Shown piece by piece: positions 1-12,113 of a stretch of DNA of 24,824 bases (its first letter is position 1; every line of letters begins with the position of its first letter). The translations under genes were made by a program, and so were the position numbers. This DNA is from a virus. The stretch lies in IMG/VR virus record IMGVR_UViG_3300048433_000056, positions 1 through 24,824 of that record; one strand, 5' to 3'. The notes under the pieces were generated by a model that searched no databases, was not told where the DNA came from, and saw nothing but the letters and a program-made list of their open reading frames with translations.

Positions 1-1755
1 AATCTGTTACACGTGTTCTAGCATAGTCTGCACTAAAGTTTCTAGCGTAGTCTGCACTATAATTTCTTGCATAGTTACCAGTGTAATTACCTAAGAAGTC
101 ACCCGTGTATGTAGTGATACGAGTTCTGTTAGAATCTCTGGTAGATGTTCTTTGATAATCAGCACTAAAGTTTCTAGCATAGTTACCAGTATAGTCACCT
201 AAGAAATTACCTACGTAATCAGTAATACGAGTTCTATTAGAATCTCTGGTAGATGTTCTTGTATAGTTTCTAGCATAGTTTGCAGTAAAGTTTCTAGCAT
301 AGTTTGTATTACGGTCTCTGGTATATGCGGCACTAAAGTTTCTGGCATAGTTTGCAGTAAACGCTCTTGCATAGTTAGTAGCACGAGTTCTTCCGTAGTT
401 ACCTACAAAGTTACCTGTGTAGTTACCAGCGAAGTTACCAGTGTAGTTACCTACAAAGTTACCAGTGTAGTTATAAGCGTTACCACCTTTACCACCACCC
501 GCATAGTTAGTTGCACGAGTTCTTGAATATGCAGTAGCACGTGTCCTTGCGTATGCAGTAGCACGAGTTCTTGAATAGTCACCTACGAAGTTACCTGTGT
601 AGTTACGAGCATAGTTACCAAGATAATTACGAGCATAGTTTCCTGTGTAGTTACCCTCAAAGTCACCATGATAATTTCTAGCATAGTTACCAAGGAAGTT
701 TCTAGCATAGTTACCTACGAAGTCACCCGCATAGTCTCCCGCAAAATCTCCAGTGTATGTAGTAACACGAGTTCTTTGATAGTTCGCACTATAATTACGT
801 GCATAGTTACCTGTATAATCACCTAAGAAATTTCCTGTATAGTCGCCTGCATAATCTCCTACGTAATCAGTAATACGTGTTCTTTGATAATCAGCACTAA
901 AGTTTCTAGCGTAGTTTCCAGTGTAGTTACGAGCATAGTTACCAGTATAGTTTCCTTCAAAGTTACCAGTAAAAACTTGTGTGTAATCAGTTGAACGAGT
1001 TCTTTGATAATCAGCACTAAAGTTTCTGGCATAGTTACCTGTATAGTTTCCTTCAAAGTTACCAGTGTATGTTCCCGCTGAGTTAGTAACACGTGTTCTC
1101 TGATAATCTGCTTCAAAGTTTCTAGCGTAGTTTCCTGTGTAATCTCCTAAAAAATTACCTGTAAATGTTGTGACTCTATCTCTGGTATAATCTGCTTCAA
1201 AGTTTCTTGCGTAGTTTCCTGTATAGTCACCAGTAAAATCTCCAAGGAAATTAGTAACACGTGTTCTCTGATAGTTTGCAGAATAATTTCTTGTATAATT
1301 ACCTGTATAATTACCAGTGAAATCTCCTATGAATTCCGCAGTACTGTTTCTAGTATATGCAGCACTATAGTTTCTTGAATAGTTTCCGACATAGTTACCA
1401 GTGAAATCACCAGTAAATGTAGTGACTCTTGTTCTTGAATATACAGCAGAATATGCACGAGCATAGTTTCCGATATAATTACCAAGGAAGTTTCTAGAGT
1501 AATCACCAGTATAGTTACCTTCAAAGTCTCTGGAGTAATTACCTACGTAATCTCCAATAAAACTTCTGGAATAATCCCCAACAAAGTCTCCAACAAAGTT
1601 ACCTGTAAAGTCTCCAGTATATTCACCTAGAAAATTACCTGTGAAATTCCTTGAGTAATTACCTACGTAATCAACACTTCTAGAGAAATCTGCGGTACGG
1701 TTTCTAGTAGAATCTGTTGTACTAACCCTTTGATAGTTTGCACTATAATCAGTGT
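1..1755 (-). repeat. Coding tetrapeptide-repeat array, 12-bp unit
   Basis: The array encodes roughly 145 consecutive units of Y/F-x-G/R/A-N/D/T. Higher-order modules recur, typically FSAD-YQRT-R(V/I)TD followed by several YxGD/YTGN units and YARN. One 29-base segment coding RNFSADYQRT is perfectly repeated at 147-175, 879-907 and 999-1027. Elsewhere synonymous codons differ freely between units (TAT/TAC, AAT/AAC, several Gly codons), so most copies are old and conserved at protein level rather than fresh slippage products. One short interruption, rich in Gly and Lys, lies near 475-505. Confidence 0.85.
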
Positions 1756-2563
1756 TTACTAGGTTAAAACGAGTATCCGTTGCAGTACCACGAGTCGCCC
1801 AAGTTCCTGTATCTGTTGGAGCGCCTTGAACATTACTTCTTAATTGATATGTTCCAACTCCATTAGAACCACTTGATATTCTAGATTGTACTCTTGACCC
1901 AAAACTATATTTAATTTCTGCATCGGTCATTTCTTTCAGACCTTGGAAAGAACCAGTCAATCCAGATGCACGTTTAATTGAGACAGGTCTTACTACAGTC
2001 GGTGAAGACATACTAGACTTCACATAAAGGTTATATACTGTTCCTGAAGAACCTGTTTGTAATCTATCAGAGAATACTCCAGCTTTATATGTTGAGTATG
2101 TTCCGCCTGGCGAAGACGAACCTAATCGGTATGTGCCTGGATATTCAGATGTTGCAATACGACTTGTTAAACGGTCTGTGAGTGTATCTACTTCTGAGGA
2201 ATCAAGTTCATGAATCTCACTTGTTCCACTATTATCATTAAACTCAATAGGATATCTAAATGCATCGGAGTCACCCGCAAAGTTAGTGATACCTTCTCTT
2301 TGATATAATGATGTTGTTGTTTGTATTACTGGAACATTACCACTAGCAAATCCGTGTGTTCCAACTGCATCGTCAAAAGTAGTATCGGTATATGTTCCGA
2401 TTAAAGCGTTATTAGTTGAGGATGCGGTAAGTGTTCCTACTGCACTAGAATCCAACGCAGAAAGATGCAACCCTGCTTGATACGCAAGGTAATTCTCCTC
2501 TGTGGTTGTTATTTCCTTGAGGTCACCATTTGTACCTTCAAGTTTTAGTGTGGTAGTTCCCAT
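1..2563 (-). CDS. Tetrapeptide-repeat tail fibre-like protein (C-terminus beyond window)
   Basis: Reading down from the ATG at 2563-2561 gives 854 codons with no stop before the left edge, so the gene is partial at its 3' end. The start is preceded by AGGTTGAT, a plausible ribosome binding site, 10 bases after the previous stop. Residues 1-270 are a non-repetitive head domain clearly paralogous to that of the upstream gene: shared pieces include a YLAY-x-AG motif near residue 28, a TDTxFDxAVGT stretch, TTTSLYQ, RLGSS and SIKRASGxTG. From about residue 270 onward nearly everything is a period-4 repeat of the form aromatic-x-Gly/Arg-Asn/Asp, for example YTGN, YARN, FSAD, broken at intervals by an Arg/Thr-rich unit such as RTRVTD. 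I know no enzymatic motif here. Position after the baseplate genes and the repeat architecture suggest a fibre or other surface structural protein; this is inference. Confidence 0.85.
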   Translation of the reverse strand, partial: MGTTTLKLEGTNGDLKEITTTEENYLAYQAGLHLSALDSSAVGTLTASSTNNALIGTYTDTTFDDAVGTHGFASGNVPVIQTTTSLYQREGITNFAGDSDAFRYPIEFNDNSGTSEIHELDSSEVDTLTDRLTSRIATSEYPGTYRLGSSSPGGTYSTYKAGVFSDRLQTGSSGTVYNLYVKSSMSSPTVVRPVSIKRASGLTGSFQGLKEMTDAEIKYSFGSRVQSRISSGSNGVGTYQLRSNVQGAPTDTGTWATRGTATDTRFNLVNTDYSANYQRVSTTDSTRNRTADFSRSVDYVGNYSRNFTGNFLGEYTGDFTGNFVGDFVGDYSRSFIGDYVGNYSRDFEGNYTGDYSRNFLGNYIGNYARAYSAVYSRTRVTTFTGDFTGNYVGNYSRNYSAAYTRNSTAEFIGDFTGNYTGNYTRNYSANYQRTRVTNFLGDFTGDYTGNYARNFEADYTRDRVTTFTGNFLGDYTGNYARNFEADYQRTRVTNSAGTYTGNFEGNYTGNYARNFSADYQRTRSTDYTQVFTGNFEGNYTGNYARNYTGNYARNFSADYQRTRITDYVGDYAGDYTGNFLGDYTGNYARNYSANYQRTRVTTYTGDFAGDYAGDFVGNYARNFLGNYARNYHGDFEGNYTGNYARNYLGNYARNYTGNFVGDYSRTRATAYARTRATAYSRTRATNYAGGGKGGNAYNYTGNFVGNYTGNFAGNYTGNFVGNYGRTRATNYARAFTANYARNFSAAYTRDRNTNYARNFTANYARNYTRTSTRDSNRTRITDYVGNFLGDYTGNYARNFSADYQRTSTRDSNRTRITTYTGDFLGNYTGNYARNYSADYARNFSADYARTRVTD

Positions 2564-2573
2564 ATCAACCTAT

Positions 2574-5186
2574 TTATGCTGTTCTTACGTAGAGAGTATA
2601 AGTCTCAATATTTTGATTACCACTACCTATGGTTTGACCCGCATAGTTACCAGTAAAGGTTCGAGCAAAGTTTCCTTGAAAGTTTCTTAAATAATTACCT
2701 GTATATTGACCCGCATAGTTTCTAGTATAATTACCAATATAATTAGCAGTAAATGTTCTAGTAAAGTTTCCTATGAAATTACCAGTAAAGGTTCGAGAAT
2801 ATGAGTCTCCTCCACTAAAATTAGAACTTCTTGTACTAACATAGTTTCTAGAATATTGACCACTGAAAAATCTTGTGTAATCACCAGTAAAGTCACCAAC
2901 ATAATCACCCAAGAAATTTCCCGCAAAATCTCCCGCATAATCACCCGCATACTCAGTCGTTGAGTTTGCAGTACTGTTTCTTGTGAATGCACGTGCAAAG
3001 GTATTTTGATATTCACCAATAAATGATGCTGCAAAGTTACCAGTAAAGTATGCCGCAGACCTACGTCTTACAGAGTAAAAATCCCAATATGGAAAATCAG
3101 CATCGGGGTAATCATTATATAAATTACTATGATATCGACCCTGAAAACTACCCTTCTCATATTCATAATTACCAATTATCATACCCGTTACTAGTTTCAT
3201 TTTAGTAATGAAATTTGCCCATGTACCTCCAACAAAATCTTCATAGCTAGGTATTCCAGTAGTATAATTGTATGAAGTTATTGTTAGATATTGACTAAAA
3301 GGTAACACACTTGATGGGTCATCTAACCCAGTAGTAGCTGCATTAGTCATCCCAAGTTGCTGGCTTGACCCTGTATTATCCGCACTGGAGGCATATATTT
3401 TAGCAAAAACAGAAATACCATATTGGTCACCATTAACATGACTCGGCCCACCATAGATTACTCTCCAGTAATCATCCGTAGTAGAATTAGACCTTGAATA
3501 ATAATAACCAGTCCAACCATATGCATAGTTTTGTCTTTGTCTAGTATAATATCTTTGTCCTATGAAATCACCAGTATAGTATTGAACATTACCTTGCTTA
3601 TGTCTACCTCTTTGGTAAACGGCAGTATAATTTGTCGTTTGAATAGAAGTTCTTTGGAAATCACCAGTATAATTTCTTGTGTAGTCACCAGTAAAGTCAC
3701 CAGTAAAGTCACCAGTTATAGTTCTATTTGAATCTCTGTTAGAATCTCTGGTAGATGTTCTCTGGAAGTTTGTCAAGACTGCATCAGTACTATTTCTAGT
3801 ATAGTTAGATTCTCTACTTCTATCAAAGTTTCTGGCATAGTTACCTGTAAAGTCTCTGGCGTAGTTGGCATCATCAATTGATTGACTATCTCTTGTACTA
3901 TTTCTTGTGTATTCACCAGTATAATTACCAGAGTATACGTTTATTCTACCATAGTTTCCAGCAAAAGCATTAGCATAATTACCAGTATAATTATTAACTA
4001 CATTACTTTGTCGTATAAAATTATTACCTTCGGCATCCGCATAGTTTCCTGTGAATACGCTTAATCTAGAATAAGCAGCAGTAAAGTTTTGAGTATAATT
4101 ACCTTGGTAGTTTAAAGCACTACTTCTATTTCTTGAATAGACTCTTTCTGTATTACCAGTAAAGTCACCAGTATAGTTACCTAGAAAACCAGATGCGGCA
4201 TAGTGGTCTGTTCTATCGGTAGTACGAGTTGTTGTGTAACTACTTGTCCTAGTAGCGTCACTGTGACTTAAAAAAGTAGACGAACGATTTCTTGAATAAT
4301 CAGCACTATATGTTGACGTTCTAAGTTTTGAATAGGTTGATGACCTTGCCCTTGTATAGTTTACGTCACTAACAACCTGTCTAGTATCTGTAGCAGTTCC
4401 TTTTGCAGCCCATGTGCCAGGCAAACCTTGACCCGTTGGTGTTGTACCAGAAGGATATATTTTATAAGAACCAATTCCATTAGATGATACTTCTGAGGCA
4501 ATTTTATTTCTAAGATAATCTGCAAAGGTCTGTCTAACTTGGTCATCGGTCATCAACTGAAGACCTTGATACGTTCCTGTAGACCCACTAGCACGTTTTA
4601 TAGAAAACGGTAATACCTTAGTGGGTGAAGTATCATTAGTTTTTCTGTAAATATTATAACCTATAGAAGTTCCATCAGTTCTAGTATCTGTCGCTAAATT
4701 TGATATAACAGCACCCCAACTTCCTGTCGGAGTTGAAGACCCTAGTCTATATGTACTTGGATAGTCAGATGTAAAAACACGACTTCTAATTCTGGTTATT
4801 AAAGAATCCATATCTGAGTCATCCATTTCACGGATAACTCTTTGACCATCACTGTCTCTCTGCATTACAGGAAGACGGAAATTATTAGAACTTCTTATTG
4901 TTGCGTCAGAAATACTTCCCGCTGCTTGATAAAGGGAAGTTGTGGTTGTACCAATTGTTAATAGAGACCCGCCACCACCAGTTCCTACAGCAGAATCAAA
5001 TGATGTATCAGTTAATGTTCCAACAAGGTTTCCTGTGTTGGTAGTGCTTAAAGTGCCAGGCGTACCATTGGCATACCCCGCCATATGTTGACCCGCTAGA
5101 TATGCTAAGTAGTTCTCCTCCGCAGAAGAGAATACTTGCAACTCAGTGGGTGCAGCACTGTCTTTTAACTTTAATGGAACAGTCAT
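2574..5186 (-). CDS. Tetrapeptide-repeat tail fibre-like protein, 870 aa, paralogue of next gene
   Basis: The start at 5186 has a good ribosome binding site (GGAGAAAG) and lies 17 bases after the stop of the upstream gene. Residues 1-275 form a head domain paralogous to that of the gene starting at 2563. Residues 275-540 are period-4 repeats (YTGN, YARN, FTGD and relatives, with Arg/Ser/Thr-rich breaks). Residues about 550-705 are a non-repetitive insert rich in Tyr, Trp and Asp. Residues 706-850 return to the tetrapeptide repeat, and the last 20 residues leave it. No signal peptide, membrane segment or catalytic motif is visible. The adjacent paralogue shows a tandem gene duplication followed by divergence. 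Most likely a fibre or virion-surface protein; the insert could be a receptor-binding or chaperone-like module, but that is a guess. Confidence 0.85.
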   Translation of the reverse strand: MTVPLKLKDSAAPTELQVFSSAEENYLAYLAGQHMAGYANGTPGTLSTTNTGNLVGTLTDTSFDSAVGTGGGGSLLTIGTTTTSLYQAAGSISDATIRSSNNFRLPVMQRDSDGQRVIREMDDSDMDSLITRIRSRVFTSDYPSTYRLGSSTPTGSWGAVISNLATDTRTDGTSIGYNIYRKTNDTSPTKVLPFSIKRASGSTGTYQGLQLMTDDQVRQTFADYLRNKIASEVSSNGIGSYKIYPSGTTPTGQGLPGTWAAKGTATDTRQVVSDVNYTRARSSTYSKLRTSTYSADYSRNRSSTFLSHSDATRTSSYTTTRTTDRTDHYAASGFLGNYTGDFTGNTERVYSRNRSSALNYQGNYTQNFTAAYSRLSVFTGNYADAEGNNFIRQSNVVNNYTGNYANAFAGNYGRINVYSGNYTGEYTRNSTRDSQSIDDANYARDFTGNYARNFDRSRESNYTRNSTDAVLTNFQRTSTRDSNRDSNRTITGDFTGDFTGDYTRNYTGDFQRTSIQTTNYTAVYQRGRHKQGNVQYYTGDFIGQRYYTRQRQNYAYGWTGYYYSRSNSTTDDYWRVIYGGPSHVNGDQYGISVFAKIYASSADNTGSSQQLGMTNAATTGLDDPSSVLPFSQYLTITSYNYTTGIPSYEDFVGGTWANFITKMKLVTGMIIGNYEYEKGSFQGRYHSNLYNDYPDADFPYWDFYSVRRRSAAYFTGNFAASFIGEYQNTFARAFTRNSTANSTTEYAGDYAGDFAGNFLGDYVGDFTGDYTRFFSGQYSRNYVSTRSSNFSGGDSYSRTFTGNFIGNFTRTFTANYIGNYTRNYAGQYTGNYLRNFQGNFARTFTGNYAGQTIGSGNQNIETYTLYVRTA
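2636..3069 (-). repeat. Second tetrapeptide-repeat block of the 870-aa protein
   Basis: This block encodes about 145 residues of period-4 repeat close to the C-terminus, such as YAGD-FAGN-FLGD-YVGD-FTGD. Gly-containing units dominate over Arg-containing ones, unlike the first block, where Arg/Ser/Thr-rich units are common. It stops about 20 codons before the end of the gene. Confidence 0.75.
3600..4360 (-). repeat. First tetrapeptide-repeat block of the 870-aa protein
   Basis: This block encodes about 250 residues of the period-4 motif. The units are more degenerate at its start (near 4360), where Arg/Ser/Thr-rich units dominate, and more regular towards 3660, where FTGD-FTGD-YTRN-type units occur in succession. 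It is separated from the second block by a non-repetitive segment of about 155 residues. Confidence 0.75.
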
Positions 5187-5203: not shown

Positions 5204-6709
5204 TTAATTAAGTTGTGTTCCATTCTCATCGAATATAAGTGGAATATCACCCCTTAATGCATTAATAGCATTCACTATACTGTCATCTTCTGTTCCTGTG
5301 AAAGCAGCGTGTAGATTTGATAACGACCCGATTCTAGAATCAACCTCAGCACCAGAAGCATCAAGTCCAGTTACTCTTGCAGCAACTTCGTTGATAGCGG
5401 ATACTAAGTTATTATGACCCGCAGCAGGAACATCGGTAGCATTTAAACCATCAAGGTTACCAACTGCACTATCTAGTAAGTTTAATGATGAACCAATATT
5501 ACCAGTGGTTGTGTTATGAGTTGCCCCAATTGCAGCACCAACCTCTGTATGTAGTTCATTGATTGCACCACGTAATGTGGTAGCAGATGTGTTGAGAGAG
5601 GCAGCACCAATCTCTGCATCGTGTTCGTTGATTGCATCCGCAACAGTTGTTGCAGTAGTAGTCAATGATTGTGTAGGTTCAACAAAGGTATTGAGTGTGT
5701 CAATCTCTGTTTCTAGTTCTGCAATCGCACCTGTAACGGTAGTTGCAGTTGTACCCATTGCACTGTCACCCTGTAGTGCATCAAGTTCATTTACTGCATC
5801 TGATAATGTAGTTGCAGTAGTTGTTAATGCTTGGGCGGGTTCGACTTTTGTATTAAGTGTATCAATCTCTACTTCTAGTTCTGCAATCGCAGTAGATACT
5901 GTAGATGCAGTTGTACCCATTGCAAGAGCAGTAATTGTACCTAACTCATCATCATGTTCTTTAATTGCACCTGTAACAGTAGATGCACTTGTTCCCATTG
6001 AAACATTACCTTGCAATGTATCAAGTTCGTTTACCGCACCTACTAAATCGTTACTAGTAGTACTAATAGTGTAATTTGCTGTAGTACCACGGATTGCAGT
6101 TTCTAGTTCATTGATTGCATCAACGATACCAGTTTTATCGGTTGTACCAAGGGACGCAAGAGTTCTTTTAGTTCCACCCTCTGCGTTAAATATGTCTGCT
6201 TCAAGTTCGTTGATAGCAGCAGTAAGATTCTTTGCACCAGTTGTAAGATTTGTGTGTGGTCTTGCACCAATATCAGAGTCAAGTTCACCAATACCAGTAA
6301 CTAAGTTAGTTGCAGTGGTTGATAGGATATTAGCGACTAGTCCATTATCAGTTCCACGAATAGCAACTTCTAGTTCATTAACACCAGATACAATATCATT
6401 TGCATTTGTTGTTAAATCAGAAGCGGCATTACCACCTCCAGAACCATGCATATCTACATCGTGTTCTACTAGTGCAGACACAACGTTATTTGCAGTAATT
6501 CCTGCTTGTGATAAATCAGTTGCAACTAAGTCATTCGAAGTACCACGAATACCTAGTTCCAGTTCATTAATAGCTGCAACGGCACTAGAGTCCTGATTCG
6601 TGTTTAATCGACCAGTTGCACCTAAGTCTAATGAGACAGTGTTGGTATTAGTAACCAACGTAGTGAACGTATCATTAATCGTTGTAATTGTCGGTTTTGC
6701 GGTAGCCAT
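5204..6709 (-). CDS. Repeat-containing tail fibre-like structural protein, 501 aa
   Basis: The ATG overlaps the stop of the 68-residue gene as TAATG, which suggests coupled translation. The N-terminus (about 30 residues, with a DTF-x-x-LVTxTNT-x-SLDLG pattern) resembles what I recall from structural proteins of marine T4-like phages. The rest is built from around a dozen imperfect repeats in which a Thr-rich strand-like stretch (TTTATTL) precedes an Ala-Ile-Asn-Glu-Leu-Glu helix-like stretch. Repeat length varies from roughly 25 to 54 residues. Such alternation fits an elongated, probably trimeric fibre, but the oligomeric state is inference. No catalytic or metal-binding motif and no membrane segment is seen. 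The position between the giant DUF4815-like protein and the tetrapeptide-repeat proteins supports a fibre or fibre-connector role. Confidence 0.85.
   Translation of the reverse strand: MATAKPTITTINDTFTTLVTNTNTVSLDLGATGRLNTNQDSSAVAAINELELGIRGTSNDLVATDLSQAGITANNVVSALVEHDVDMHGSGGGNAASDLTTNANDIVSGVNELEVAIRGTDNGLVANILSTTATNLVTGIGELDSDIGARPHTNLTTGAKNLTAAINELEADIFNAEGGTKRTLASLGTTDKTGIVDAINELETAIRGTTANYTISTTSNDLVGAVNELDTLQGNVSMGTSASTVTGAIKEHDDELGTITALAMGTTASTVSTAIAELEVEIDTLNTKVEPAQALTTTATTLSDAVNELDALQGDSAMGTTATTVTGAIAELETEIDTLNTFVEPTQSLTTTATTVADAINEHDAEIGAASLNTSATTLRGAINELHTEVGAAIGATHNTTTGNIGSSLNLLDSAVGNLDGLNATDVPAAGHNNLVSAINEVAARVTGLDASGAEVDSRIGSLSNLHAAFTGTEDDSIVNAINALRGDIPLIFDENGTQLN
5690..6012 (-). 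repeat. Two-copy 162-bp tandem repeat inside the 501-aa gene
   Basis: A 54-codon unit is present twice in tandem, offset by 162 bases. Matching words include tgcagttgtacccattgca at 5744-5762 and 5906-5924, and tctagttctgcaatcgca at 5712-5729 and 5874-5891. Each copy codes a MGTTA-TV-AIAELE-EIDTLNT-VEP segment. This is the best-conserved pair in the protein and suggests the most recent internal duplication. Confidence 0.75.
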
Positions 6710-6915
6710 TACAGTTTCTCTATTAGTTTGTTAAGGAGTTCTTTAACTTCACTTACTTCATTCTTTAAATCATCAAACTCTCTTTCTTGTTCTTTTCTTT
6801 TCGTTTTTAATAAACGAGCTTTACTTATCTCATCTTTATTTATATTAACAATTGTCCCCGAATTTGGGTCTCTTGCTAAAGATGAATTTCCTTCTATAGC
6901 AACATACGATTTCAT
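6709..6915 (-). CDS. Small coiled-coil protein, 68 aa, unknown function
   Basis: Its ATG overlaps the stop of the 1732-residue gene (TAATG), and its own stop overlaps the next ATG in the same way, so it is embedded in a translationally coupled string. The first 30 residues contain a LARDPNSGTIVNI stretch. Residues 32-68 are strongly charged and heptad-like, ending in ELLNKLIEKL, which predicts a coiled coil. I recall similarly sized proteins with a 'RDxxSxAIxN' start and a helical tail at this place in other marine T4-like phages, always without assigned function. The real gene status is supported by tight packing and conservation of that pattern. It could be an adaptor or assembly factor between the baseplate periphery and the fibres; this is speculation. 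Confidence 0.75.
   Translation of the reverse strand: MKSYVAIEGNSSLARDPNSGTIVNINKDEISKARLLKTKRKEQEREFDDLKNEVSEVKELLNKLIEKL
6837..6844 (-). promoter_or_regulatory. Possible intragenic T4-type late promoter box (TATAAATA)
   Basis: A perfect TATAAATA octamer on the coding strand lies inside the 68-residue gene, 127 bases upstream of the ATG of the 501-residue fibre-like gene. T4-type late promoters consist essentially of this box alone. Because the box is also just codons for Asn-Ile-Asn in AT-rich DNA, chance is a real alternative. Confidence 0.3.
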
Positions 6916-9900
6916 TATGTTGCCATTGCAATTGCACGTAAGTCCTTGAAGAAAGGAACTTTTGCAGAGTTATTAGTACGCATTACAATCTTAAATTGAT
7001 ATTGCGAGAATGCATCAACATCTCCACCGTCTCCACCAATTAGGAAACGATAATCACGGAAGTTTCTTTCATCAGCAGCAATCGTTTGTTCTGGTGATTC
7101 TAGTGTCCAATCTATATCAAAGATGTTGTCACCATCTTGTGCAACTCTCCAATATAAATCAAAGTCTGAACCAACTGGTCTTAGACAACCAATTATTAGT
7201 TTTAAACCAACAGCGGGTTCTTCAAGAACACCGACTGTAGTCATGTGTTTTGCAAGTGATGAACCACCAAACGCTGTTGTTTCTGCAACATAGTTCAACG
7301 GAACATTGAATCCCGCAGCAGTAGCCGCTGCTTGATTATCAATAATATTGTTTGTAGTTTTGAGTGATACTCTTTGTGCATCAACCAATGGAGAAACATC
7401 TCCACGGACTGTTGTCATGTTAACTTTAAATGTTGCAGACTTAACCCCTGAACCTAGTTCAACAGACTCGTTTGCAGTCTTAGCAATAAGTCTTGGAGTT
7501 GTGAAATAGTTTTCATCTCCAATACGAATCTCAGAAGAGTATGTAATATCTTTTTGATATCTTGTTTGACCAATAGAAGCAAATGATTTACCAGAAGTAA
7601 ATTTAACATTATATGTTATATTTGTGTCATCGGGTTGTAATGTTGTAAATTCTGGAACAACAGTATCGAATAGAACCTGTCTATCTGCCTTAACTGCATC
7701 TCCACCAACTCTACCACCCGCATTTGCATTACTACCCGCTTCAAACTTAATACCAAATCCATCTGCGTGAGTAACAGTTCTGTTACCGTTTATATTACCC
7801 GCAGACAATCCATTACCACCAACAGCACCTGAAATTGTGATAGTATCACTTACATCATAACCGTGGTTCGGGAATAACATAGTAACTGTCGCATCGGATG
7901 ATGTTGTAAAGAATGGATTACTTGAAATTGATTCTTTTTCAAGAGCAGCGTTTTCAAACACTGCATAACCACCCGCAGTATCAAAGTCAGCAGTGAAGAT
8001 TTTAAATGCAAGGTCTTTTGTTTGGTCTGGCTCCCATGTCTTACCATTCTGAGATTTAAATAATGACCCCATAGATGGTTGACGTGAAATACGTTTCTCT
8101 GTAGAACCAAGTTCAAATGCATAAGTCTCTGCGACATAAGCATTATAATCAATTGATTCTGCAAGAAGAACAATACAATAATCCGTTTCTGGATTCAAGA
8201 AGATTGGTTCATCAAACTCAAATGTAGTGGGTGCATTTAAGACCGCAGCTTGTGTTTGAGAAGCAGGAAGATTTACCGCACTTGGGTTCAAGAACTTAGA
8301 CGCATTACCAATAATCTCTGTAGAAGATGGAGCGCCATTTACCATAGGACGAATCTGTAATTCAACAGGAATACTTGTATCCTTGCTTTGAAAATAAGTC
8401 TGAACCTTAGTTACAAACATTCCAGATGGTTTTGTTACTGTGAATGATTGTGCAAGAGGGTCACGATTACGGACACGTGTAGTCTCTGTCCATCTACGAG
8501 TTCTCTTCTGAGTAATACGAGTAGATGTAATAGTCTCTTGTCTAGTATCCAATGTACCTTGAGCAACATAGTTATTTGATGCATGTGATAAAGCAGCGTC
8601 ATCATCATTCTTACTAATATCAAGTAGTTTAAATTCTCTTGTTCCCGCACGGAAACGATTTGTTTCACTTGACGGAATAAAGAATGAACCTTCAATTTCA
8701 CCATTCGAGTTAGATATTAAATTCGAAGAACCCTCTGGGTGAGTAGTAGCTAATCTATTTTCTTTACCACTTAGGAACGTTCCGCTTGCATGTCTTTGGA
8801 ATGCTTTTTCTTTACAGAAAGTTGCAACATCTGTACCATCAAAGAATGGGAAGTATCTAGTGTTAGGTCTTAAACCTTCTGCACGGAAAGATACCTCACG
8901 AGAACGAATGAAAGGAAGGAATGTTAATGATACAGTTTTATCACCAACAATCTTACGAACTGTTCTATTACCAACAACTACATTTTGACTAAAACTTGAA
9001 GTTCTACTAGTAAATGTACCATCGTTTGTTGTAGACACACCAGTTCGGTTTATACCGTTTGAACTTCTTTGGGTGTTTAGACCAGACCAGTTCCACTGAC
9101 CCGCTCCTCTCCATCCTCCAAAGAGGTTGCCGATACCACCACCGCCACCACCAATACCGAATTCACCGAATCCTATTAATGGAATAAAAGGCGCTCCAGA
9201 CCACATCCATGCACCACTACCGCCAGCGAATCCACGTTGTTGTGCAGTACCTACTGCAAGATTACCTTCGTTTAGGTCACCTAGTTGTTCTTCCGCAGTT
9301 TTGTTAATTACATTTGCGGGTTTGTATGCTGTTTGAAACCATTCATCTGAAGCTGGAGATAGAGTAAGATTTCCTTCTCCAGTAATAACTGCGAATGGGT
9401 TAACGTTCTCTGTTCCAGAAATTACTGGTTGACTTATTGATTCAACATGTGTATAATTAAGGAATATCGTATCACCTTTAAGAATAGTGTTTGATGATGC
9501 GGCACTGTCATATACAAGTCCAACGTTATCTTCAAAGGTTGCACATGAAAGTAAACCTTTAGTTGGGTCAATAGCAGCACGATATTCTGAGTTTTCTGCG
9601 TCTGAGAAACTTCTATTTGCAAAGTTATCTACGAAGAAACCTGATTTCATTCTAGAGTTTCCAGCAGAATCAAGAACTAAGAGTGAAGATGTATCAAGTT
9701 CTAACATACTTAAAGTTGTTACTTCTTCTAACTTATCAATTCTATTCTCTAGTTCAGAGATATCTTTCATTGTAAATCCTTTCGCTTTGAGAGGAGTTAC
9801 AACTACGTCAGAGTCATTTAGACCATATGCGTTATGTTCTAGTTCAAAAAGACCTAGAGTATTTGATGGGGTTGCGGGAATCTGAGAAGAAAATCCTGCT

Positions 9901-12113
9901 TCACCTAAAATATTTTTAACTTCACCTTGTTCGGTAACTACGATTTTATCTGAACGAGGGACATAATATGTTACGTCACCTTGGAAGATATCACCATTAG
10001 CAGGGATTTCATTTTGTGATGAAGTAGTAAATACATTACTAGAGTTTACCGCAGAACGGAAATCAATTACGTCACGTAAGTTTACGGATGTTCTAGGCCC
10101 GACTTTGAATGCGGGTATCTTGTCATAATCAACCTTACCTTCGTAAGAGTTAACTGAGAAGTAATCTCCATTACCATGAACAAAATGTTTAAATGCACAG
10201 TAAACTGTTCCGTTTTGAGTCTCTCCACCATTTAATACTAATCGACCATTACCATAGAATCCTGCTCGTTGACCATCATCAACAGTAAATTGATGAGAGA
10301 TATCTGTACCACCAGAATTAGTTAGTCTAATTGATTGTACACTATAGACATCAGTTTTACCTAAATCTAGATATTTTGCACCAGTTAAAGAATCGGTTGA
10401 TAATGTTGCGGTTGCAGTTGCATCGGTTAATGTCTTTGGTCTAACTACTGGGGATGCTTTGTTAATTTTATGATATACGATAGCATTAGCAGATGCTACA
10501 TTACTAACAGTCATAGAGGTAGTACCAGAAGTACCAAAAGTTGCACCAGTTTGTACAGCACCAGTAGATGCATTAATAACAATCCAATCACTTGTATTGG
10601 TATAGGTTTCACCAGTCACAGTCAAGTTAGGCATAGAGAATGAACTTGAAGAATTAGAAATCGTAGCAGAAACTCTTTGAACTTCAAAGTCAACGTCTGT
10701 AATTGCTCTTGGTCTTGGATTAGGAAGAGGATATACTAAGTTTACTTTAGTTGCATCCTTAATCACTGCTTTACTAGATTCAAAAACAGGGATTGCTCTA
10801 TTAGTTGTACTAGTACCAAGTGTTTTAATATTTCGGAAAGACTGTCCACTATTCATCTTGATATCAAATAGATAGACTTTAAAATTAACACCACTCTTTT
10901 CTACAAAACGAACTCTTGCTGTACCTGTAATACTTGCAGCAGGATTAGTAGTAGATGTTGATAGATTAACTGTCTTAAACAATGAACCAATGTCGCCCTT
11001 TAGTTCACTACATAAGACAAATTGACCATAACTAATACCAGTTACTTCATTCTCTAAAGTTACATCAGTTCTTGGTTTTGGAATAGTAATAGGTGTAGGT
11101 TTTTCTGTTGCACCACGATGTCCGTTTACATATGCAACACCATCTGATACAGATGCGACTAGATTAGTCGCTGAGTCACTGAAATCAACAGTGAAGTCTT
11201 TTGCAATATAATCTCCACTCTCTTCTTTTGTTCTTTGTGCAACAAGTGTATTAGGTGCATTGTAATTATCTGCACCAGTTACTTGGTCAACTACATTACC
11301 ATCAACAATATCACAATAGAAGACAAAGTTTTCATCTGAGGCAACGTCATCTTTTGTTGTTAAAGTAAGTTTAATTCGGTATCTATCAGCGCCAGGCGAA
11401 GATAGGTTAGGATTTGCACCCTGATTATCATACAATTCATTAGTATCCGCAACAGTAATAATATCTTCTGTTACTTTAAAACCAATAACTTTAGTAGGAT
11501 ATCTTGTATATTTTGATATAATAAGTGATTGAGGTTTAGCGAATACAAAATGACCACGAGTAAAGAAATCACCCGCAGCATTTGATACTTGACAACCACG
11601 TCCTACAGCAGGGTTTGCAATAGTGTTTGTTGATTGTGTTGTAAATGTAAAACTACCACTTGTGATATCTACACCCGATTGCATACGAACTGGGTTTGTT
11701 CCAACGTCACCACCAGAGGTGTTTGTGTATTGAACATATAGTGTTGCTGGGTCTGAACCTGTAGCAGTCACGACCTCTAGAACTCTTGCAGCAGTACTTG
11801 TTGCGGCATGTGTGAACTCAAGTCCTATTAAAACAGAAGTATCGTCTGGTAAAGTTCTTACTGAAGTATCTAGTTTAATAAATTCATAATCACTATTGAC
11901 GTGAGGGCCGCCTGGATTTACGGCAGCACCGTCTTTAAAGACGTTCCGACCAAATCTCCCGATTTCCTCTTGAATGATTGTTTGTAGTTGAGTAAGTTCA
12001 CGTGCTTGAACCGCTCTACCACTGTTAAAAAGGACACGATGATAATTATCACTGTCCTTAAAATCATCCTTATAGGTTGATTGGAATACGTTAGATGTAA
12101 ATGTCTTTGGCAT
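6915..12113 (-). CDS. Giant DUF4815-like baseplate/tail structural protein, 1732 aa
   Basis: The start at 12113 follows AAGGT and lies 10 bases after the gp8 stop. The N-terminus (first 70 residues, with NxxRVLFNSGRAVQARELTQLQ, then IGRFG and VFKDG) matches what I recall of the DUF4815 family of structural proteins in marine T4-like phages. Visible landmarks are a predicted coiled coil near residues 780-805 (ISELENRIDKLEEV), a Trp/Phe-rich segment running into a six-glycine run near residues 965-1000, a conserved-looking FLPFIRSREV and FPFFDGTDV region near 1080-1120, and a jelly-roll-like region after 1260 that ends with electron-poor loops. Its position after gp8 is where T4 places gp9, gp10 and gp11, so it may replace several peripheral wedge or fibre-attachment proteins. 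That role is inferred; the family itself has no assigned function that I know. Confidence 0.85.
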   Translation of the reverse strand: MPKTFTSNVFQSTYKDDFKDSDNYHRVLFNSGRAVQARELTQLQTIIQEEIGRFGRNVFKDGAAVNPGGPHVNSDYEFIKLDTSVRTLPDDTSVLIGLEFTHAATSTAARVLEVVTATGSDPATLYVQYTNTSGGDVGTNPVRMQSGVDITSGSFTFTTQSTNTIANPAVGRGCQVSNAAGDFFTRGHFVFAKPQSLIISKYTRYPTKVIGFKVTEDIITVADTNELYDNQGANPNLSSPGADRYRIKLTLTTKDDVASDENFVFYCDIVDGNVVDQVTGADNYNAPNTLVAQRTKEESGDYIAKDFTVDFSDSATNLVASVSDGVAYVNGHRGATEKPTPITIPKPRTDVTLENEVTGISYGQFVLCSELKGDIGSLFKTVNLSTSTTNPAASITGTARVRFVEKSGVNFKVYLFDIKMNSGQSFRNIKTLGTSTTNRAIPVFESSKAVIKDATKVNLVYPLPNPRPRAITDVDFEVQRVSATISNSSSSFSMPNLTVTGETYTNTSDWIVINASTGAVQTGATFGTSGTTSMTVSNVASANAIVYHKINKASPVVRPKTLTDATATATLSTDSLTGAKYLDLGKTDVYSVQSIRLTNSGGTDISHQFTVDDGQRAGFYGNGRLVLNGGETQNGTVYCAFKHFVHGNGDYFSVNSYEGKVDYDKIPAFKVGPRTSVNLRDVIDFRSAVNSSNVFTTSSQNEIPANGDIFQGDVTYYVPRSDKIVVTEQGEVKNILGEAGFSSQIPATPSNTLGLFELEHNAYGLNDSDVVVTPLKAKGFTMKDISELENRIDKLEEVTTLSMLELDTSSLLVLDSAGNSRMKSGFFVDNFANRSFSDAENSEYRAAIDPTKGLLSCATFEDNVGLVYDSAASSNTILKGDTIFLNYTHVESISQPVISGTENVNPFAVITGEGNLTLSPASDEWFQTAYKPANVINKTAEEQLGDLNEGNLAVGTAQQRGFAGGSGAWMWSGAPFIPLIGFGEFGIGGGGGGIGNLFGGWRGAGQWNWSGLNTQRSSNGINRTGVSTTNDGTFTSRTSSFSQNVVVGNRTVRKIVGDKTVSLTFLPFIRSREVSFRAEGLRPNTRYFPFFDGTDVATFCKEKAFQRHASGTFLSGKENRLATTHPEGSSNLISNSNGEIEGSFFIPSSETNRFRAGTREFKLLDISKNDDDAALSHASNNYVAQGTLDTRQETITSTRITQKRTRRWTETTRVRNRDPLAQSFTVTKPSGMFVTKVQTYFQSKDTSIPVELQIRPMVNGAPSSTEIIGNASKFLNPSAVNLPASQTQAAVLNAPTTFEFDEPIFLNPETDYCIVLLAESIDYNAYVAETYAFELGSTEKRISRQPSMGSLFKSQNGKTWEPDQTKDLAFKIFTADFDTAGGYAVFENAALEKESISSNPFFTTSSDATVTMLFPNHGYDVSDTITISGAVGGNGLSAGNINGNRTVTHADGFGIKFEAGSNANAGGRVGGDAVKADRQVLFDTVVPEFTTLQPDDTNITYNVKFTSGKSFASIGQTRYQKDITYSSEIRIGDENYFTTPRLIAKTANESVELGSGVKSATFKVNMTTVRGDVSPLVDAQRVSLKTTNNIIDNQAAATAAGFNVPLNYVAETTAFGGSSLAKHMTTVGVLEEPAVGLKLIIGCLRPVGSDFDLYWRVAQDGDNIFDIDWTLESPEQTIAADERNFRDYRFLIGGDGGDVDAFSQYQFKIVMRTNNSAKVPFFKDLRAIAMAT

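Follow-up and report, generated by a model that had tools for sequence, protein, structure and literature searches.

The DNA analysed here, termed the window, is the entire IMG/VR virus record IMGVR_UViG_3300048433_000056 (24,824 bases), in which a T4-like baseplate module on the minus strand ends with two tandem genes, here called A and B, that encode related repetitive proteins. Gene A (2574-5186, minus strand) encodes 870 amino acids (aa), and gene B (2-2563, minus strand) encodes 854 aa before it is interrupted by the contig end. In three other viral contigs (L004-L006; loci are cited by such numbers throughout), A is identical and B is identical over all 854 residues, there continuing to 1135 aa and ending in ..TYTLYQRTA. 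The initial annotation of the window described two neighbouring genes with a common head of about 270 residues, and this is borne out: the heads, residues 1-276 of A (4359-5186) and residues 1-272 of B (1748-2563), share 44% identity across residues 6-292 of a 295-residue query (E 2.7e-57), their limits being drawn from an alignment of heads across the family and, in A, from high predicted confidence up to residue 270. All features of the two genes given below lie on the minus strand.

Beyond the head, both proteins are built from tetrapeptide units (tetrads) that typically begin with an aromatic residue. Pairs of aromatic residues four positions apart number 100 in B against 24.5 expected, with 0, 1 and 0 pairs at separations of one, two and three, and 51 in A against 18.3 expected. 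The strict motif [YF]-x-[GRA]-[NDTA] accounts for 112 units in B, no more than 16 of them in a row; a count near 140 is reached only with a looser motif whose position 1 may also be Arg, Ser, Thr or Trp. A turn, AGGGKGGNA at residues 688-696, breaks the array. Thus the strict aromatic period of four in the initial annotation stands on the excess at lag four, and its count of over 140 consecutive units falls. The array of A is less regular, with 48 strict units, a longest run of 7 and a globular stretch near residues 555-712.

The head of A, an eight-head alignment and the head of a protein from phage C48C1 served as queries and brought together relatives from 102 viral loci, one of the searches contributing the best 80 of 161 candidates. 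A profile recognised 156 head-bearing open reading frames (ORFs), 127 of them distinct, in 104 loci that include the window and C48C1. The encoded proteins range from 423 to about 3350 residues, two tandem copies are present in 52 of the 104 loci (several other loci being incomplete), and a TYTLYxR-like end is found in 94 of the 95 distinct ORFs that are closed at the 3' end. A path model favouring aromatic residues assigned 14,280 tetrads in the 127 distinct proteins and maintained register over as many as 205 tetrads. Position 1 is Tyr in 47.5%, Phe in 29.2%, Arg in 16.5% and Ser in 5.7%; position 3 is Gly (39.7%), Arg (35.0%) or Ser (11.8%); and position 4 is Asn (34.2%), Thr (21.7%) or Asp (17.6%). 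Arg at position 1 mostly follows a tetrad with Arg at position 3.

Comparison of nonsynonymous (dN) and synonymous (dS) divergence indicates that the repeat is under purifying selection, clearly in B-type arrays and more weakly in A-type arrays, so that the proposal of selection in the initial annotation carries over in full only to the former. For the B arrays of L004 and L014, dN is 0.087 and dS 0.709 over 830 codons, as compared to 0.056 and 0.489 in the head. Among 12 pairs compared, the array dN/dS ratio is about 0.11-0.13 in three and 0.23-0.42 in three others; A-type arrays give values from 0.3 to above 1 (0.050/0.045 for A of L021 and L022), and two of the 12 pairs are too alike to judge.

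A period of four is the sole universal period of the arrays because the favoured longer lag differs between proteins. When tetrad classes are pooled, lags 3 and 6 stand out, and the preferred lag among 18 proteins was variously 3, 6, 7 or 11, leading to rejection of a universal superhelical period. N-glycosylation sequons (Asn-aromatic-Ser/Thr) were also rejected as the cause of the pattern, the value for Ser/Thr after Asn being 0.40 against an average of 0.46. In two short relatives (L064:10001-11311 and L067:3148-4488), about four aromatic tetrads lie at each end and the remainder of the arm consists of other repeats (NYAGPT and NYLGETSGAV).

Symmetry and pairing of the two arms

If the array is a loop inserted into the protein, the stretches on either side of its main interruption, here called arms, should be equal. 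Ninety complete proteins were measured in a fixed base register, and 83 have an interruption, either a Gly turn or a globular domain, away from the ends. This interruption lies within 2% of the array centre in 47 of the 83, where about 3 would be expected from a uniform distribution, and within 5% in 53; by head cluster, the median falls within 5% of the centre in 18 of 30. Symmetry is thus a property of most genes other than the A-type, and chosen examples spanning proteins of very different length have arms of 553/551, 494/493, 442/441, 281/283, 293/295, 297/299, 265/267 and 240/241 residues. Where a Gly-rich turn is found near the middle of B-type proteins it sits at 0.495-0.499 of the array, and in six such proteins, between 826 and 1183 aa long, GGGKGG or a variant occupies 0.495-0.497. 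In B of the window the GGGKGG turn (residues 689-694, 482-499) lies at an array fraction of 0.497, between a putative outgoing arm (residues 273-688, 500-1747) and a putative returning arm (residues 695-854, 2-481) that is truncated by the contig end.

In some close homologues the two arms also change length together. In 6 of 12 distinct comparisons of close homologues the change is equal in both arms (60/60, 32/32, 26/26, 24/24, 20/20 and 4/4 residues, the last three being comparisons among the same three contigs), and the B arms of L004 and L014 differ by six tetrads each. Changes in the two arms correlate with r 0.97 over 108 pairs, a value inflated because these pairs were preselected as central, and with r 0.46 over all 152 pairs, of which 80 agree to within 4 residues. 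Matched gains or losses are seen in L106/L107, L066/L069/L072, L086/L090 and L004/L014, even though the arms are hundreds of residues apart. We know of no genetic mechanism for equal gain of tetrads in two distant arms, and how they come to acquire equal numbers of units is an evolutionary question in its own right.

A relationship between the arms is also seen in covariation. Tetrads were numbered from the base independently on each arm, and mutual information (MI) between arms was calculated for 50 proteins, obtained from 67 with at least 12 tetrads in both arms by removing identical starts (leaving 55) and non-standard base offsets. In 1657 tetrad pairs, MI peaks in a single register, offset 0, with 0.439 bits per residue pair, falling to 0.38 at +2, 0.28 at -2, 0.20-0.22 at +1 and -1 and about 0.1 at eight residues, with background beyond ten residues (at most 0.086 at 12-20). 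Controls pairing arms of different proteins reach at most 0.076, and parallel pairing of the arms at most 0.08, these backgrounds and that of distant offsets together spanning 0.05-0.09. Reducing each head cluster to a single protein (25 proteins, 895 tetrad pairs) gives 0.437. Up to six residues away, even offsets mostly carry more MI than odd ones, a pattern expected of antiparallel beta strands to which the uneven variability of the four positions contributes. The signal holds in each of four classes of distance from the base, 0-10, 10-20, 20-40 and 40-100 tetrads, with 16 proteins contributing beyond 40 tetrads. Scoring tables that leave out the cluster being scored recover a best shift of 0 in 24 of 25 clusters and, with coarser clustering, in 46 of 50 proteins.

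The residues that face one another at this register point to a pairing rule of complementarity, not identity. Arg at position 1 of the N-terminal arm is opposite Phe of the C-terminal arm in 321 of 341 cases and never opposite Arg; Tyr is opposite Tyr in 620 of 783, a cross-strand aromatic pairing that is statistical and not structural; and Arg at position 3 is opposite Gly in 418 and Ser in 157 of 635. Direct duplication of one arm into the other was rejected on the absence of a parallel signal (maximum 0.08). An RNA or DNA hairpin was rejected as the source of the symmetry, nucleotide complementarity being 0.246 at the pairing offset and 0.20-0.32 elsewhere, without Watson-Crick excess, and synonymous coupling amounting to 0.0008 bits over the 620 Tyr pairs.

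The window proteins were scored with a table from 39 proteins that omits eight window-type A genes and the B-type genes recognised by an N-terminal motif. Full-length B of L004 reaches a score of 68.6 with its centre at 693, the position of the GGGKGG turn, against a permutation maximum of 9.4 (0/300). Its 96 tetrad pairs comprise Tyr-Tyr (42), Phe-Arg (20), Phe-Tyr (17) and Phe-Ser (9), among others, with no Arg-Arg. When B-type proteins were scanned in the base frame only, five of seven gave no clear peak, and with local registers all nine proteins exceeded 300 permutations; the weak base-frame peaks probably stem from a two-residue slip of register near the base.

Gene A appears to have two paired blocks, each above all 60 shuffles. 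The putative base stem pairs residues 277-300 (4287-4358) with 825-848 (2643-2714; score 9.4, shuffle maximum 7.7), and the putative distal stem pairs 466-501 (3684-3791) with 735-770 (2877-2984; score 7.9, shuffle maximum 6.7). Residues 301-465 (3792-4286) consist of irregular tetrads and contain no cross-arm block above shuffles, residues ~555-712 (3051-3524) form a globular domain at the predicted tip with no Pfam or PHROG match, and residues 849-870 (2577-2642) carry the conserved end ..ETYTLYVRTA. In eight A-type proteins scanned with hand-set tip limits, both blocks exceed 60 shuffles in five, A of the window included. L018 and L024 have two longer blocks that are near-contiguous on the returning side and about 113 residues apart on the outgoing side; because the split is confined to the outgoing side, residues 301-465 of A are probably a side excursion or branch of the outgoing arm.

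A predicted hairpin fibre and its rivals

Structure predictions bear on where the chain ends. In the AlphaFold2 model of A (48 sequences), block means of the predicted local distance difference test (pLDDT) are 72-96 in the head, 25-44 through most of the array and 86-97 in the last 20 residues (851-870). The 423-aa L068 protein (60 sequences) gives 81-98 in the head, 29-38 in the array and 89-98 in the last 23 residues. The L068 model has matching long strands at 259-285 and 393-421 that seem to pair, and the covariation register, which sets aromatic against aromatic at 277 and 401 (sum 678), agrees with the predicted strand ends (sums 678-680). The only chain matching both models with Z of at least 2 was the MABP beta-prism of human MVB12B (PDB 3tow), with Z 5.8 and a root-mean-square deviation (rmsd) of 3.5 over 110 residues among 209 chains compared, and Z 5.1 and rmsd 3.5 over 107 residues among 996 chains; in both models the aligned range reaches the protein C-terminus. 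These Z values are below the level at which the tool is trustworthy, identity is 10%, and the match may reflect just a common arrangement, with no functional link. Foldseek returned no match at E 0.001 for either model against PDB, or against BFVD; such an absence is no proof of a new fold, and the 870-residue model is mostly of low confidence. Together, the high-confidence end, the strands and the weak structural match suggest that the C-terminus is back at the head and that the stems are beta strands.

A and B are thus probably hairpin-shaped fibre proteins of a T4-like marine myovirus, with arms matched tetrad by tetrad. The antiparallel matched-arm architecture is itself very likely, a role as a fibre is likely, and pairing within a chain is the more probable arrangement as compared to pairing between chains. 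In the proposed structure the head would be completed by the protein's own C-terminal strand, and the tetrad array would leave it as a single extended arm, turn at a Gly turn in B or a globular domain in many others, and return as an antiparallel arm of equal length. Tyr would lie opposite Tyr, Phe opposite Arg or Ser, and position-3 Arg opposite Gly or Ser, with the sum of paired residue numbers constant (1386 in full-length B); A would consist of two paired blocks with a side excursion. Because the arms run out and back, both termini would lie at the base and the middle of the sequence would form the tip. We further infer that the array is in extended beta conformation over its full length, that the head attaches the fibre to the baseplate and that the tip binds the receptor; the likely role is a baseplate-anchored fibre, probably for catching host cells. 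The aromatic face made by positions 1 and 3 should need burial, so several hairpins probably pack together, perhaps as trimers. At the beta-strand rise of 0.33 nm, the roughly 416 residues of the B arm would extend about 140 nm.

The candidate tips change rapidly. Conservation was compared in 11 chosen pairs of relatives, and that of the tip falls below that of the head in every pair and below that of the first part of the arm in 10, as in L097/L086 (head 0.99, arm 1.00, tip 0.43) and L018/L024 (0.97, 0.98 and 0.53). Ten tips searched contained no Pfam domain above the cut-off; the tips of C48C1 and L052 match PHROG families of unknown function at about 1e-5, and that of C48C1 also has a weak tail-fibre match. 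A fast-changing tip in mid-sequence fits receptor binding and is not proof of it.

A number of observations weigh against this interpretation. No confident structure is predicted for the array in either model, and it is by confidence values, strands and a weak match, not by coordinates, that the C-terminus is placed. Six of the 12 close-homologue comparisons show uncompensated change (two of these switch between different interruptions), and 30 of 83 interruptions lie more than 5% off centre. Twenty-one of these are in the first gene of a pair (A-type), and the remainder are in L103/L104, L061, L066, L069, L075, C48C1 and lone A-like genes; a further seven of the 90 proteins have no usable interruption. 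C48C1 has 1538 and 1201 residues around its largest break, yet its base 19 tetrads pair at shift 0. Another shift is preferred in 4 of 50 proteins with coarse clustering (L043 A, L044, L048 and L050), L050 also with finer clustering. Among A-type proteins L007 fails, with 5 and 14 of 60 shuffles reaching its two blocks, and L014 (1 and 0) and L008 (0 and 2) attain significance only partially. Finally, the proteins are related by descent, so the counts are not independent.

Covariation cannot separate pairing in cis from pairing in trans, and it is conceivable, if unlikely, that arms pair between chains, in an oligomer of swapped hairpins that might also join A with B. Phage fibres are often trimeric, A and B have a head in common, and tandem copies are found in half of the loci with many others incomplete; against this, and without being decisive, the predicted monomer seems to bring the C-terminus to its own head, and the turn lies at the midpoint of single chains. 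It is also rather unlikely that the hairpin is real but belongs to a secreted or cell-surface phage product instead of a virion fibre. The S-RIM2 repeat protein discussed below, annotated 'structural', lacks this head, which leaves room for that view, whereas each of the 95 loci with enough upstream sequence has a DUF4815 gene on that side, and a relative of tail-fibre assembly genes lies downstream in all 60 loci with sufficient sequence there.

In most characterised tail fibres the rod is linear and the C-terminus distal; the initial annotation named a new fibre shaft among its suggestions. A conventional linear trimeric beta shaft with the C-terminus at the tip, its symmetry and covariation being left by a history of duplication, would accommodate the protein-dependent whole-tetrad spacings noted above. 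Such a history predicts parallel correlation, which is absent, and identity between arms, where complementarity is observed (Arg with Phe, Arg with Gly) and no synonymous or nucleotide-level signal accompanies it; the linear shaft is therefore strongly contradicted and very improbable, and arm symmetry and cross-arm covariation indicate an out-and-back hairpin in its place. Least probable of all is an intrinsically disordered array, or an unstructured spacer or coat whose pattern is compositional: low AlphaFold confidence and low sequence complexity would suit it, and purifying selection on B-type arrays, register held over so many tetrads and register-exact covariation would not.

Comparison with known systems and possible novelty

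If the hairpin fibre is correct, it differs from the fibre types compared. T4-type gp34 and gp37 and the triple-stranded beta-helix of gp5 are long beta-rich repeat rods whose chains run one way, and in gp34/gp37-type fibres the N-terminus is at the virion and the C-terminus at the distal tip; the midpoint turn and antiparallel covariation of A and B would instead put the tip in mid-sequence. The gp5 repeat is an octapeptide, VxGxxxxx, as compared to a period of four with an aromatic at position 1. Pentapeptide and RHS-YD repeats do not describe A or B, which have period four and match no Pfam repeat model at E 1. In tryptophan-zipper type beta-hairpins, which are small Trp peptides, cross-strand aromatic pairs stabilise an antiparallel hairpin; in A and B the pairs would be Tyr-Tyr and Phe-Arg and would continue for as many as hundreds of residues. 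Among the closest known proteins is CDS0201 of phage C48C1 (OQ984149.1, WJE88074.1, 'hypothetical protein', Kyanoviridae), with the same head, tetrad arrays, C-terminal motif and downstream cassette, all found for A and B too (the cassette via L004-L006). It differs in being annotated as one 3347-residue protein, whose second half contains several additional globular inserts. The cyanophage S-RIM2 structural protein SWRG_00083 (L010:7405-13143) has a different tetrapeptide array, [VL]-T-G-[ND]; its xTGN stretches are like A and B in their period of four with Gly-Asn at positions 3-4, and differ in having Val or Leu at position 1 and in being short, within a 1912-aa protein that lacks the head and the TYTLYVR end.

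The repeat does not fall in an already solved family by the searches made here, in which Pfam, PHROGs and PDB sequences gave no significant match. The best Pfam E was 0.93 for A, with none for B; PHROGs gave none for A and only E 0.0068-0.015 for B, one being a tail fibre family; PDB sequences gave no match to either at E up to 1; and the head profile gave nothing significant in PDB (best E 0.82). Repeats may mask remote homology of A and B to known fibre families. Among 50,697 phage records, two other family heads match C48C1 only, and weak matches in the phage collection involve Enterococcus phage 156 (antisense to annotated genes), Mycobacterium prophiGD102-1 and marine virus AG-345-D19. 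In the titles and opening parts of abstracts covered by a literature search, nothing was recognisable as an aromatic tetrad repeat or hairpin fibre, and we could not find a description of such a pairing rule. The suggestion of an undescribed fibre or adhesin in the initial annotation is supported by these results and by the baseplate neighbourhood, the adjacent tail-fibre assembly gene and the fast-changing tip.

There is a somewhat better than even chance that the family represents a new fibre architecture, namely a single-chain, out-and-back hairpin rod of up to about 700 residues per arm, with a protein pairing code, lengths that often change by matched gains of tetrads in both arms, exchangeable globular tips, branching side excursions and neighbouring enzyme-like genes that may modify the array. 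The proposed code pairs Tyr:Tyr, Phe:Arg and Phe:Ser at position 1 and Arg:Gly, Arg:Ser and Gly:Thr/Ala at position 3, and resembles base pairing in spirit. Such a rod would be long and anchored at both ends, its length and pairing written in a simple readable code, and pairing, tips and branches could be read from sequence in many uncultured marine phages, with possible use as a guide to protein design.

Neighbouring genes and scattered repeats

Upstream of A, the baseplate module includes a gp6-like protein (PHROG 219), a gp8-like protein (Pfam Phage-Gp8), a gp9/gp10 N-terminal-like protein, a 1732-aa DUF4815 protein (PHROG 358; 6915-12113, minus strand), a 68-aa structural protein (PHROG 473) and a 501-aa tail-fibre-like protein (PHROG 25848; 5204-6709, minus strand). 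The nearest counterpart of the gp6-like protein is in phage C48C1 (38% identity), with Pelagibacter phages Mosig and HTVC008M next (31%), and it is for these relatives that the window virus is termed marine. Among the 95 loci with more than 6 kb upstream, the DUF4815 gene is present in all and the 501-aa gene in 62; many loci are near-duplicates, so neighbourhood counts are not independent. The 501-aa protein is itself repetitive, with recurring ..INELE/INELD.. segments detected by eye, and is likely a fibrous structural protein.

Downstream of the array genes lies a four-gene cassette (d154-d248-d221-Ltf), found in all 60 loci with more than 2.5 kb of downstream sequence and known for the window type from L004-L006, beyond the contig end. 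In L004 its genes encode 154, 248, 221 and 122 aa, the last a tail-fibre assembly relative. The 248-aa gene (L004:16507-17250) may be glycosyltransferase-like, a reading that depends on its conserved YVDADM-type motif. Of 24 members, 13 match Pfam GT2 weakly (best E 0.0019) and 20 match an unrelated ExbD model just as weakly (best 0.0038), and PDB gave nothing significant. The 221-aa gene (L004:17253-17915) has invariant His and Arg residues (HNN..H..R) that we take to be reminiscent of 2-oxoglutarate oxygenases, a likeness with no database support. That the two products modify the array is a guess.

The DNA pattern for four strict units also occurs elsewhere, in lists that are samples and not totals. 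Viral contigs gave at least 119 stretches, several from contigs already collected; among the 119 listed, 79 have the head in the same frame, 29 are longer arrays without a head in the stretch and 11 are short simple repeats. Bacterial genomes, with at least 119 stretches, were rejected as a source of the array: among the 119 listed none has the head, and runs are of at most 15 units, low in complexity and often in short frames. Short FRGD, FPGD and FGGD repeats are present in many bacterial and archaeal genomes (L229-L347), and several of the flanking translations are alike across phyla, perhaps representing the wrong frame of a common conserved gene.

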